Origin: Pelagibius sp. Alg239-R121 | GTDB lineage: Bacteria; Pseudomonadota; Alphaproteobacteria; Kiloniellales; Kiloniellaceae | Direction: 5' to 3' | Length of the DNA: 64,000 nucleotides | NCBI RefSeq assembly: GCF_947331435.1 | Contig: NZ_CAMZOF010000001.1 | Coordinates: 62,001 to 126,000 of the forward strand | In this document: piece by piece, positions 7,712 to 40,458 of the stretch | How positions within the stretch are numbered: the stretch's first letter is position 1 | Layout: each line of letters starts with the position of its first letter | Notes under the pieces: model-generated | Database searches by the model: none | What the model saw: the letters and a program-made list of their open reading frames with translations, nothing else | What the model was told of the DNA's origin: nothing | Position numbers and translations under genes: made by a program

Positions 7712-7760
7712 GCCGAGCTGCCCTGCCTTACCCCGCCGCAGCGATCTGCTCGGCTTTCTT
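7710..7760. terminator. Possible bidirectional terminator between convergent genes
   Basis: AAGCCGAGC (7710-7718) is exactly complementary to GCTCGGCTT (7748-7756), which is followed by TCTT. The long intervening loop includes the 3' end of the lyase gene. The stem is sound, but the loop is large and the U-tract short. Confidence 0.35.
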
Positions 7761-8708
7761 GACCATCACTTCGGCCTGCTTGATCGAAGCGATGTCGATC
7801 AGGCGGCCATCCAGGGAAACGGCACCTTTGCCTTCGGCCTGAGCTTGTTTCATGGCGTCCAGGATGCGTTGGGCCTGAGTGATTTCCTTTTCCGAAGGGC
7901 TGTTGACCTCGTTGGCGATATCCACCTGACTGGGGTGGATCGCCCACTTGCCTTCGCAGCCGAGCACCGCGGCGCGGTAGGCTTGAGCCTTAAAGCCATC
8001 GGGGTCGGAGAAGTCGCCGAAGGGGCCATCGATCGGACGCAGGCCATGAGCGCGGGCGGCGACCACCATACGGGCAACGGCATAGTGCCACATGTCACCC
8101 CAATGGTAGTCGCGCGGCGCATCGCCGTCCTTGTCCGTAAGTACGCCATAATTGGCGTTGGGACCGCCGATAACCGTGGTGCGCGCTTTGGTCGAGGCGG
8201 CGTAGTCGGCAACGCCGAAATGCAGGCTTTCGTTCCGCTTGGATGCGGCAGCGATAGCGTCCACGTTGGCCATACCCAGCGCAGTCTCGATGATCATCTC
8301 GAAGCCGATCTTCTTTTTACGGGCCACGGCGTCCTCGACCTGAGTAACCAGCATGTCGAGCGCGTAGACGTCGGCGGCTGTGCCGACCTTCGGGATCATG
8401 ATCATGTCAAGACGCTCGCCGCCCTGCTCAATGATATCCACCACGTCGCGGTACATGTAGTGGGTGTCCAAGCCGTTGATGCGGACCGAAATGGTTTTGT
8501 CGCCCCAGTCGAGATCGTTCAGGCCTTCGATGATATTCTTGCGGGCCTGGGCCTTGTCGTCGGGTGCCACCGCGTCTTCCAGATCGAGGAAAATCACATC
8601 GGCGGCGGACTTGGCCGCCTTCTCAAAGAACTGCGGGCTGCTGCCCGGGACCGCCAGTTCGCTCCGGTTCAGACGTGCGGTGGCCTGTTCGACAATGGTA
8701 AAGCTCAT
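7728..8708 (-). CDS. HpcH/HpaI-citrate lyase family enzyme, probable malyl-CoA/methylmalyl-CoA lyase
   Basis: A 326-residue CoA-ester lyase. The fold is shown by R-S-E-L-A-V-P-G-S-S-P-Q-F-F near the start, the metal-site motif D-V-I-F-L-D-L-E-D-A-V-A-P, and later I-E-T-A-L-G-M-A-N and W-A-I-H-P-S-Q. The opening of the sequence closely resembles L-malyl-CoA / beta-methylmalyl-CoA lyases of other alphaproteobacteria, which cleave malyl-CoA to acetyl-CoA and glyoxylate, and methylmalyl-CoA to propionyl-CoA and glyoxylate, in the ethylmalonyl-CoA pathway. A citramalyl-CoA lyase role is possible. The methylmalonyl-CoA mutase and MeaB genes elsewhere in the window fit this pathway. The ATG at 8708 is chosen by homology; the frame is open further upstream. 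Confidence 0.82.
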   Translation of the reverse strand: MSFTIVEQATARLNRSELAVPGSSPQFFEKAAKSAADVIFLDLEDAVAPDDKAQARKNIIEGLNDLDWGDKTISVRINGLDTHYMYRDVVDIIEQGGERLDMIMIPKVGTAADVYALDMLVTQVEDAVARKKKIGFEMIIETALGMANVDAIAAASKRNESLHFGVADYAASTKARTTVIGGPNANYGVLTDKDGDAPRDYHWGDMWHYAVARMVVAARAHGLRPIDGPFGDFSDPDGFKAQAYRAAVLGCEGKWAIHPSQVDIANEVNSPSEKEITQAQRILDAMKQAQAEGKGAVSLDGRLIDIASIKQAEVMVKKAEQIAAAG

Positions 8709-9048
8709 GGGATTTCCTCGCTCTCTGGAATGACACTGCCTGATATTGCTGTGCAACATCAGAGCGCGCGTAGCGCCATACTGCACAGCATCCGGGTAAT
8801 TTCCGGTAAAATTTGCAGTGCAGTATAGACAGATTCTTTCGCACCGCAACAAAGCTTTTGAGTGAGTGATGACTCTTGAGTGCGACGGTTATTTACGTAA
8901 TCAGACAGGAAGGAGAGATACCGTCCAACCAGCCCGCGAACTCCTACCCGCAGGCCGGTGAAGCTATCCTGTCTGGGATCCCTTTGATAACCGACTTGGA
9001 ACTTTTTCTAAGTCTCCGCGGCGGGGGTCTTTCCGCTGCGGGTCCGCA
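8709..9048. other. Intergenic region with the lyase promoter
   Basis: About 340 bases between the lyase start and the stop of the LytTR gene, both on the minus strand. The first ~120 bases hold the inverted motif pair described separately and an 11-base-spaced CCGG-TAA direct repeat. The remainder shows no convincing gene; a 76-codon plus-strand frame has no family features. Confidence 0.5.
8778..8828 (-). promoter_or_regulatory. Inverted pair of ATACTGCAC motifs upstream of the lyase
   Basis: ATACTGCACAGCA (8778-8790) faces TGCAGTGCAGTAT (8814-8826); 12 of 13 positions are complementary. The distal copy, read on the minus strand as CTATACTGCACTGCAAA, contains a -10-like TATACT and lies about 105-120 bases before the lyase ATG. 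Between the copies, CCGG-TAA recurs 11 bases apart. The same element is found upstream of scpA (36226-36242). A TGC-rich palindromic site of this sort is plausible for a metabolite-responsive repressor or activator; the regulator is unknown. Confidence 0.6.
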
Positions 9049-34000: not shown

Positions 34001-36154
34001 TTATGCCGCGGCGCGACGTTGTTTAACGATACCCAAAATTTCATGCGCGGCATGTGGAATATTTGTCCCCGGTCCGTAGATGGCCGAAACACCGGCGGAC
34101 ATTAGGAAGTCATAGTCCTGAGGTGGAATCACGCCACCGCAAACCACGATTATATCTTCGGCGGCCTGGGTCTTCAAAGCTTCGATCAATTGCGGCACCA
34201 GGGTCTTGTGACCCGCGGCCTGGCTGGAGACCCCAATGACATGCACGTCGTTTTCGATCGCCTGCAGGGCCGCCTCCTCGGGTGTCTGAAACAGCGATCC
34301 CACATCGACGTCGAACCCGATATCCGCAAAGGCGGTCGCAATCACCTTGGCGCCGCGATCGTGTCCGTCCTGCCCCATCTTAACCACCAGCATCCTGGGG
34401 CGCCGCCCTTCCATCTTGGCAAAGGCACCGATCTCTTCCTGGATTCGGGCAAATCCCTCATCACCTTCGTAAGCGGAGCCATAGACGCCCGAAATGCTGC
34501 GAATCACGGCGCGATGCCTGGTAAAGACTTTTTCGAGTGCATCTGAAATCTCCCCGACGCTTGCCCGCTTGCGGGTCGCTTGGACGGCGAGTTCCAGAAG
34601 ATTGCCCGATCCTGATTCAGCTGCATGGGTCAATGCCTCCAATGCGTTGCGACAGTCGTCGTCGCTCCGGTCCGCGCGGACGCGGTTGAGACGTTCGATC
34701 TGACTGAGACGCACAGCGGTGTTGTCGATATCGAGGATATCAATCTCATCCTCGGTCTCAAGACGGTATTTGTTGACGCCGACGACAACCTCTTCGCCCC
34801 GGTCGATGCGTGCCTGCTTACGGGCTGCCGATTCTTCAATCTTCAACTTCGGCATCCCGGATTCGACCGCCTTGGTCATGCCGCCCAGTTCCTCGACTTC
34901 TCCGATCAGCTTGCGGGCTTCGGCAATCAGGCTGGCCGTTAGGCTTTCGACGTAGTAGCTGCCCGCCAGAGGGTCTACCACCTTGGTGATGCCGGTTTCC
35001 TCTTGCAGCACCAACTGAGTGTTTCGAGCGATGCGGGCCGAGAACTCGGTCGGCAGCGCGACCGCCTCATCCAAGGCGTTGGTGTGCAGTGACTGAGTAC
35101 CACCCAGAGCCGCCGCCATGGCCTCAATCGTCGTACGGATGACGTTGTTGTAGGGGTCTTGCTCCGTCAGGGACACGCCTGAGGTCTGGCAGTGAGTGCG
35201 CAGCATCAGGGAGCGCGGGTCCTTGGGGTTAAAGAGATCCCGCATCAGGTGCGCCCATAAAAAGCGCGCGGCACGCAGCTTGGCGACCTCCATGAAGAAA
35301 TTCATGCCGATTGCGAAGAAAAAGCTAAGGCGCGGAGCGAAAGCATCAACTTCCAACCCCTTCGAAAGGGCGGCGCGAACGTACTCAATGCCGTCGGCAA
35401 GGGTGAATGCCAGCTCCTGAACCGCATTCGCACCGGCTTCCTGCATGTGGTAGCCGGAGATCGAGATCGAATTGAACTTCGGCATGTGCTGTGAAGTGTA
35501 CTCGATGATATCAGCCACCACCCGCATGGAAGGCTCGGGCGGGTAGATGTAGGTGTTGCGGACCATGAACTCCTTGAGAATGTCGTTCTGAATCGTGCCC
35601 GCGAGCTTGTCCTGAGACACGCCCTGTTCCTCGGCAGCCACGATATAGCCGGCAAGAACCGGCAGAACCGCCCCGTTCATGGTCATAGAGACCGACATGC
35701 GGTCCAGAGGAATCCCGTCGAACAGGATCTTCATATCCTCGACGGAATCGATCGCAACCCCCGCCTTGCCGACATCGCCGACGACGCGAGGGTGGTCGGA
35801 GTCGTAACCGCGGTGCGTCGCCAGATCGAAGGCGACGGAAAGGCCCATCTGTCCCGCCGCCAGGTTCTTGCGATAGAATTCGTTCGAGGCCTCGGCCGTC
35901 GAAAAACCGGCGTACTGGCGGATCGTCCAGGGACGCCCCGTGTACATGGTCGCACGTGGACCCCGCAAAAACGGCGCAGATCCGGGCATGGCACCCGCGG
36001 TTTCCAGACCTTCCAGATCTTCCGAAGTGTAGAGGGGTTTAACTGCGATTCCCTCAGGGGTTTCCCAGACGAGATCCTCGGACGAACCACCCTTGAGTTC
36101 CTTGGCGGCAGCGGCCTGCCAATCCTGGATCGTCTTGTCCGGAAAATCTGCCAT
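34001..36154 (-). CDS. scpA: Methylmalonyl-CoA mutase, single-chain
   Basis: A 717-residue adenosylcobalamin-dependent enzyme interconverting (R)-methylmalonyl-CoA and succinyl-CoA. The N-terminal TIM-barrel domain shows [16 protein letters not shown] and [12 protein letters not shown]; the C-terminal B12 domain has the base-off ligand motif [11 protein letters not shown]. Length equals the homodimeric ScpA type. The ATG at 36154 begins M-A-D-F-P-D-K-T, the family start; the frame is open 46 codons upstream. MeaB lies downstream, and a motif shared with the malyl-CoA lyase promoter lies 72 bases upstream. Confidence 0.95.
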
Positions 36155-36208: not shown

Positions 36209-36225
36209 TCTCGCCTCATTGACCT

Positions 36226-36242
36226 TTTGCGGTGCAGTATAA
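36226..36242 (-). promoter_or_regulatory. scpA promoter element shared with the lyase gene
   Basis: TTTGCGGTGCAGTATAA on the plus strand; on the coding strand it reads TTATACTGCACCGCAAA with a -10-like TATACT. It matches the element at 8812-8828 in 15 of 17 positions, in the same orientation to its gene. It lies 72 bases upstream of the scpA start. Confidence 0.6.
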
Positions 36243-39171: not shown

Positions 39172-40458
39172 TTAGGCCGCGGGACGGGCAAGGCGGGGTT
39201 CACCGAACAGAAATCCCTGTCCGTAGTCGATCTGCTTATCGAGAAGCCTGCGCAGGGTGTCCTCAACTTCGACCTTTTCCGCAACCAGATTGATCGGAAC
39301 GCCCTTAAAAGCTTCGAGCAGGGCATCGACTTCGGAGGTTCCGGCTGCCAGTCGTTCGGCTTCGATCTTCACGAAGCGAATGTTCGCCGAGGCGAGCGCA
39401 GGCAGATCCATCTGCAGATCCGTCACCTGATCAATTGAGAGCCGGCAACCAACGCGCGCCAAGCGTTGAAGGTGACGTTTTTCGATCTCCCCGAAGTTCG
39501 CAAATTCCGACTGGGCAAACTCAAAAATCAGATTCGGCCCCAAGACTTCGTTGTTTTCGAGAAACTCGACGAAGTCGCCAAAAAAGTCATCGTCCCGCAG
39601 GGTATGGGGCGAGATGTTGCAAAAGAAATCCAGATTGTCGCTGCGGCGCTGGATCTTGCGCACCAGTTGAACGCAACGGAACAACAGCATGTTGTCGATC
39701 GCCGTAATCAGCCCTTCGCGTTCCGCGACCGCAATATACTCTTCCGGGAGGATCATCAGATCTTCTTGGGTCCGAACGCGTGAGAAGCACTCGTAAAAGC
39801 GCCGCTTGCGTTGCGGCATACTTACGATGGGCTGGAGAACAAAGCTGATTCGATCGTCCCGGAGAGCCTTTTGAACCTGTTCGAGAATCTCATCTTCACT
39901 CAGGTTACGGACAACCGTCGGCAGAACGCCCTCAGTGGCTTCGTTTTTTTGCGGTGAAACGTCTTTGAGGCCGACGTCGGCACTTTGCAAACCAGGTTCG
40001 GCCGGACCGGAATTGATGGATGGCGGGGCGGCGGACACAGCCGGTTCAACGACCAACGTCTGCTGCGGTTCTGACGGCGCCGATCCCAGTGACTTCAGGA
40101 CACGAACTTCGGTAATGGCCTCACCGACAGTACCGGGACCACTCGACGCGCGCGCCGAATGCACGACAGCCTCTACCGCTTCGGCGAGCGCCTTGTTTTC
40201 GCGCCGCGACCAATTGAGCTGCTCGTGGAGTTCGGTCTGCGTATGCCTAAGTGCTAATATTTGCCGCCCGAAGAAGGTTTCCCGCGAAACCCGCTGATAC
40301 ATTTCGTGAACCAGCGCACCGGCCAGGAAAATAAGCAAGCCGATTACCACCGCAACCGGCTGGTCGAGACGGGGTACGCGCAAGGGCGCCACCACCGCCA
40401 CGGCGATTGCCAGCGCCGTGTAGAGTCCGAACAACAGAATATTGCGAGCCACTGACAT
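39172..40458 (-). CDS. Membrane protein with degenerate EAL domain
   Basis: A 428-residue protein with two membrane helices (~7-25 and ~36-53), a coiled stretch to ~110, a Pro/Ser-rich linker and a C-terminal EAL-like domain (~190-420). The domain starts F-V-L-Q-P-I-V-S-M but the E-A-L signature is replaced by E-C-F, and the later motifs L-x-E-I-T-E and D-D-F-G appear as F-E-F-A-Q and I-D-Q-V-T-D. These changes argue that it does not hydrolyse cyclic di-GMP and may be a binding or scaffold protein. The ATG at 40458 is preferred because the upstream 99 codons do not look like protein. Confidence 0.82.
   Translation of the reverse strand: MSVARNILLFGLYTALAIAVAVVAPLRVPRLDQPVAVVIGLLIFLAGALVHEMYQRVSRETFFGRQILALRHTQTELHEQLNWSRRENKALAEAVEAVVHSARASSGPGTVGEAITEVRVLKSLGSAPSEPQQTLVVEPAVSAAPPSINSGPAEPGLQSADVGLKDVSPQKNEATEGVLPTVVRNLSEDEILEQVQKALRDDRISFVLQPIVSMPQRKRRFYECFSRVRTQEDLMILPEEYIAVAEREGLITAIDNMLLFRCVQLVRKIQRRSDNLDFFCNISPHTLRDDDFFGDFVEFLENNEVLGPNLIFEFAQSEFANFGEIEKRHLQRLARVGCRLSIDQVTDLQMDLPALASANIRFVKIEAERLAAGTSEVDALLEAFKGVPINLVAEKVEVEDTLRRLLDKQIDYGQGFLFGEPRLARPAA

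Follow-up and report, generated by a model that had tools for sequence, protein, structure and literature searches.

Putative PhaR-type operators at ethylmalonyl-CoA pathway promoters of Pelagibius sp. Alg239-R121

A palindromic element shared by the promoters of a malyl-CoA-type lyase and a methylmalonyl-CoA mutase of Pelagibius sp. Alg239-R121 is very likely an operator bound by PhaR (AniA), a transcription factor that also attaches to PHB granules; PhaR would repress ethylmalonyl-CoA pathway genes until the granules titrate it away. Operators of this type are known; what seems new is the predicted occurrence of PhaR-type sites, as a regulon, on the promoters of the ethylmalonyl-CoA pathway. 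The literature that we searched, in which subscription journals were thinly covered and earlier reports may exist, contained no account of PhaR at these promoters. The Sinorhizobium meliloti PhaR paper does not name genes of the pathway (PMC12542648). In Methylorubrum, PhaR is known to affect acetyl-CoA flux (PMC6520949), and the portion available of the phaR transcriptome paper from this genus does not mention ccr.

A palindrome at the lyase and mutase promoters

The stretch analyzed (the window, 64,000 nucleotides) carries both genes on the minus strand. The lyase gene (7728-8708) is of the malyl-CoA/beta-methylmalyl-CoA lyase type (mcl1-like), with matches to CitE/malyl-CoA lyase-type families that fall below the equivalog cut-offs, and its best matches in 29 of 30 relatives sampled from the order are 71-94% identical. 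The stand-alone methylmalonyl-CoA mutase gene (34001-36154) scores 1287 bits with NF006944, against a cut-off of 876. The original prediction was that 8812-8828 and 36226-36242 share 15 of 17 bases in the same orientation, 104 and 72 bp upstream of the two genes, and all of this is correct, the starts at 8708 and 36154 being ATG codons. The 8.02-Mb genome has just two exact matches to the pattern TATACTGCAC(T/C)GCAAA, one before the lyase and one before the mutase, and the exact 16-mer TATACTGCACYGCAAA is likewise confined to these two promoters across the whole assembly. Within the 64-kb window there are three matches with up to three mismatches, against 0.38 expected in shuffles. Over the whole genome, the three-mismatch count (81) is barely over that of a reversed-pattern control (67), so loose genome-wide matching is uninformative. 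Five two-mismatch matches fall in related stretches, 75-91% identical (L006-L010, on contigs C12, C15, C18, C20 and C23), which have TGTTCTGCACYGCAAA in common, resemble a repeated element and swell the loose motif counts.

The core of the element, TGCACYGCA, is a palindrome. The motif of S. meliloti PhaR is WNWD2NYGCRNYGCRNH2WNW, i.e., a YGCRNYGCR core with AT-rich arms (PMC12542648), and both elements fit 20 of its 21 positions, arms included; the exact core is found at 8814-8822, 8840-8848 and 36228-36236. What had been described as a promoter element is indeed present, but it is better termed an operator, whose AT-rich left arm overlaps a -10-like TATACT at both genes. The S. meliloti operators have the same core and arms and stand either as a pair around the -35, at phasin promoters, or singly between the -10 and the start. 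Their targets differ (phasins, depolymerase, exopolysaccharide, Entner-Doudoroff and TCA genes), whereas the candidate targets here include ethylmalonyl-CoA pathway genes (PMC12542648). The PhaR boxes of Paracoccus denitrificans, Rhodobacter sphaeroides and Bradyrhizobium (TGC-rich; NGCN3GC[GA] in Bradyrhizobium) also pair two half-sites (TGC/GCA) across 3 bases, and one promoter often holds several such boxes. The Pelagibius palindrome is stricter and longer, and in the text consulted mcl, mcm and ccr do not appear among the named targets (PMC10888616).

The lyase promoter contains several copies, all listed on the minus strand. Operator B (8808-8828, CTATACTGCACTGCAAATTTT, core 8814-8822) corresponds to the element first noted; it scores 14.0 on a matrix built from phasin promoters (see below), rank 30 in the 2.0 Mb scanned, and three other species of the genus have a box at the equivalent position. 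The -10-like TATACT within it occupies 8822-8827, and CTATACTGC is kept in three congeners; no canonical promoter was detected at this hexamer by consensus scan. The inverted second copy of the original prediction also exists (copy C, 8776-8796, CCCGGATGCTGTGCAGTATGG), as a weaker, operator-like sequence with one core mismatch and four overall, absent from the matrix matches. Two further copies had escaped notice. Operator A (8834-8854, CTTTGTTGCGGTGCGAAAGAA), 26 bp upstream of B and over the expected -35 region, has an intact core (8840-8848), a 19/21 fit to the PhaR motif and a matrix score of 15.2 (rank 20). Copy D (8741-8761, TGATGTTGCACAGCAATATCA) is a near-perfect palindrome 43 bp before the lyase start, with a single mismatch, located in the core, and a score of 14.2 (rank 26). 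Matrix matches 20, 26 and 30 thus fall within 114 bp, the densest cluster and the only triple in the 2.0 Mb scanned. The genome encodes a second malyl-CoA-type lyase (C1:1374715-1375686), 79% identical to the copy in the window; at its promoter we found no PhaR-type box with up to two mismatches.

The mutase promoter has one operator (36222-36242, minus strand, TTATACTGCACCGCAAAAGGT, core 36228-36236), with a matrix score of 16.0 and rank 17 in 2.0 Mb. Here, the -10-like TATACT (36236-36241, minus strand) is preceded by a promoter-like -35, giving TGGACT-18-TATACT, of which 0.0 are expected in shuffles. In relatives, the mutase site is kept at the same position, over the -10, and in genus g2 it has a one-base insertion in the spacer (TGCACCTGCGA). 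Strict or near-strict boxes were found at mutase loci of Kiloniella, Dongia, Emcibacter, Magnetovibrio and several unclassified alphaproteobacteria; none of 37 Rhodobacterales-type and none of 17 gamma/delta-type mutase promoters reached a score of 14 on the matrix. The genome has two methylmalonyl-CoA mutases, 71% identical: the stand-alone copy of the window (C1:96004-98154) and one in the pccB-pccA operon, beside an ScfR regulator (C2:620259-622364). In the three other species of the genus, we found only a 70%-identical mutase match, apparently the operon copy.

The same sites at phasin and storage genes

A single PhaR gene is present (C5:27556-27867), with a TIGR01848 score of 150.5 bits (cut-off, 109.45), the DNA-binding domain PF07879 and PF05233. 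At this locus, there are boxes before phaR and phaA and another just upstream of phaB. Phasins are the classical PhaR targets. A relaxed version of the palindrome gave 60 matches in the whole genome against 19 in the control, and the best of them lies ca. 100 bp upstream of a phasin gene. A second phasin promoter of the strain carries a pair of boxes, so that two of its three phasins have them. In relatives, strict boxes were found at 27 of 30 phasin promoters, often as two copies ca. 58 bp apart. One relative (G023), apparently without PhaR, was considered as a natural knockout and rejected: its phasin promoter keeps two perfect boxes, and the incompleteness of its assembly probably explains the missing PhaR gene.

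We trained a matrix solely on the phasin-promoter boxes of other species and then applied it to other genes with a threshold of 14 bits. In relatives, sites at or above this value were found in 11 of 30 lyase, 12 of 26 mutase and 17 of 24 ccr/ecm promoters, while dinucleotide shuffles gave expectations of 0.03, 0.06 and 0.08 for the lyase, mutase and ccr promoters; the remaining 19 lyase promoters had no matrix site. Direct observations are the sites themselves, their conservation, their likeness to phasin-promoter sites and the presence of a PhaR gene. Scanning of 2.0 Mb of the 8.02-Mb Pelagibius genome placed a phasin promoter 1st, the divergent ccr/ecm-like pair 7th, the mcl2-like/mesaconyl-CoA hydratase (mcl2-mch) operon 11th, the mutase 17th and phaA 23rd. 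An acyl-CoA dehydrogenase gene, maybe mcd, follows ccr on the same strand. The genes ecm, mcd, mcl1 and mcl2 were assigned by family and neighborhood and not by curated equivalog cut-offs. The scan yielded 30 matches of at least 14 bits against 14 in first-order Markov sequence; with this background, single matches of rank 15 to 30 in this genome prove little alone. By score, the boxes of its mutase and lyase are unexceptional, and the case rests on conservation and clustering.

The expectation of a common regulator is supported by the sites before phasins, phaR, phaA, phaB, the divergent ccr/ecm pair and the mcl2-mch operon. The feared excess of random copies in coding sequence was not borne out, sites being several-fold rarer in the coding DNA of relatives. 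The loose resemblance to sites of carbon-storage regulators pointed the right way, since the regulator is most likely PhaR. Propionyl-CoA carboxylase, also expected to have the element, was a failed prediction: the pccB-pccA-mcm2 operon (C2) adjoins a divergent PccR/RamB-like ScfR gene, and we found no strict PhaR box in the intergenic region between them. One mutase copy thus has a PhaR-type site (that of the window) and the other lies beside an ScfR gene with no strict box, so the two are apparently under different control.

Alternative regulators

Could the element be the site of an acyl-CoA regulator of the ScfR family, of the PccR or RamB type, sensing CoA esters of the pathway? Four ScfR genes are present in the genome, one of them divergent from pccB-pccA-mcm2, and members of this family control how relatives assimilate propionyl-CoA and acetyl-CoA (PMC12632250; PMC10370305), with PccR of Cereibacter sphaeroides controlling pccB and possibly downstream genes (PMC12632250). 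PccR (Rhodobacter/Cereibacter sphaeroides) and RamB (Paracoccus) regulate the same metabolic area and have homologues encoded here, but their binding sequences are unlike the Pelagibius element. Class-2 RamB boxes (TGACAAnnCTnAC, 18 bp apart, as read off wild-type and mutant oligonucleotides) are matched with 4 of 11 mismatches at best, the same as in shuffles. The two halves of PccR-type sites are spaced by 4 bases. Such paired TTTGCAAA sequences are missing from both promoters, where the best candidates have 6 and 7 of 16 positions mismatched, and in the window TTTGCAAA occurs only at 39984, 44022 and 60785. Besides, the same palindrome is found at phasin promoters, which are PhaR targets, and the pcc operon, the expected target of PccR, lacks the element. 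We consider an ScfR regulator improbable at these promoters.

A little less probable still is a different, undescribed repressor that recognizes the same TGCNNNGCA palindrome on ethylmalonyl-CoA genes and leaves only the phasins to PhaR. The arms of the lyase and mutase sites in this genome (TATACT, against TTATG at phasins) and their lower scores would fit such a division. However, the -10 that overlaps the operator accounts for the TATAC arm, and the lyase sites of genus g4 (TTATGTTGCGGTGCACAATAA) are indistinguishable from phasin sites, with matrix scores of up to 30.3. As for the two 16-mers being chance -10-like promoter sequence that binds nothing, the three-mismatch pattern barely exceeding its genome control speaks in its favor, but the only two exact copies in 8 Mb both precede enzymes of one pathway, the same place is kept across genera and the excess over shuffles is at least 200-fold, which makes coincidence extremely unlikely.

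Predicted control of acetyl-CoA assimilation by stored PHB

With PhaR as the preferred regulator, we infer its binding to these sites, repression as the sign of the effect and titration by PHB. PhaR would bind the palindrome TGC(R)N(Y)GCA over the -10 of the mcl1 and mcm promoters, at the lyase gene probably also covering the -35, and so repress them; the overlap of operator and -10 fits repression. In other organisms, PhaR has been shown to act as a repressor that comes off the DNA once it binds PHB (PMC12542648; PMC3079617), and in Bradyrhizobium the same box is reported at activated and repressed genes alike (PMC10888616). Without PHB, the pathway genes would be held low. When a surplus of acetyl-CoA leads to the formation of PHB granules, PhaR would be drawn onto them and the promoters would open. 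Through sites of the same type at ccr/ecm, mcl2-mch, phaA, phaB, phaR and the phasins, storage and ethylmalonyl-CoA assimilation would be switched together. PHB synthesis and the ethylmalonyl-CoA pathway have their first intermediates in common, up to 3-hydroxybutyryl-CoA.

Some boxes were found at other genes. Two PhaR-type boxes, of ranks 2 and 16 in the 2.0 Mb, lie upstream of an 88-aa ORF with no family match (C1:856298-856564; L342:16298-16564), whose product is possibly a granule-associated or regulatory protein. A strong PhaR-type box of rank 5, 25 bp ahead of a RamB-like ScfR gene (C1:1226070-1227641; L361:6070-7641), is a hint of a cascade from PhaR to ScfR. Boxes also precede the acetate-CoA ligase gene acsA (C1:1454121), a large ADP-forming acyl-CoA ligase-like gene (C1:657099) and a P-II protein gene (C1:785838).

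Taken over the whole group, it seems reasonably probable that in Kiloniella-like alphaproteobacteria virtually all of the ethylmalonyl-CoA pathway (ccr, mcd, ecm, mch, mcl1, mcl2 and one mcm) is under direct PhaR control along with phaA, phaB and the phasins, the stored polymer being the signal that opens acetyl-CoA assimilation, and that propionyl-CoA carboxylase and the second mutase answer to an ScfR regulator instead. What switches on the ethylmalonyl-CoA pathway is understood only in part, and the ScfR regulators that have been studied account for propionyl-CoA carboxylase and the glyoxylate cycle. If the proposal is true, a polymer sensor acting on the committed enzymes would explain how acetyl-CoA is divided between storage and growth, which would matter for the engineering of strains that make bioplastics or dicarboxylic acids.
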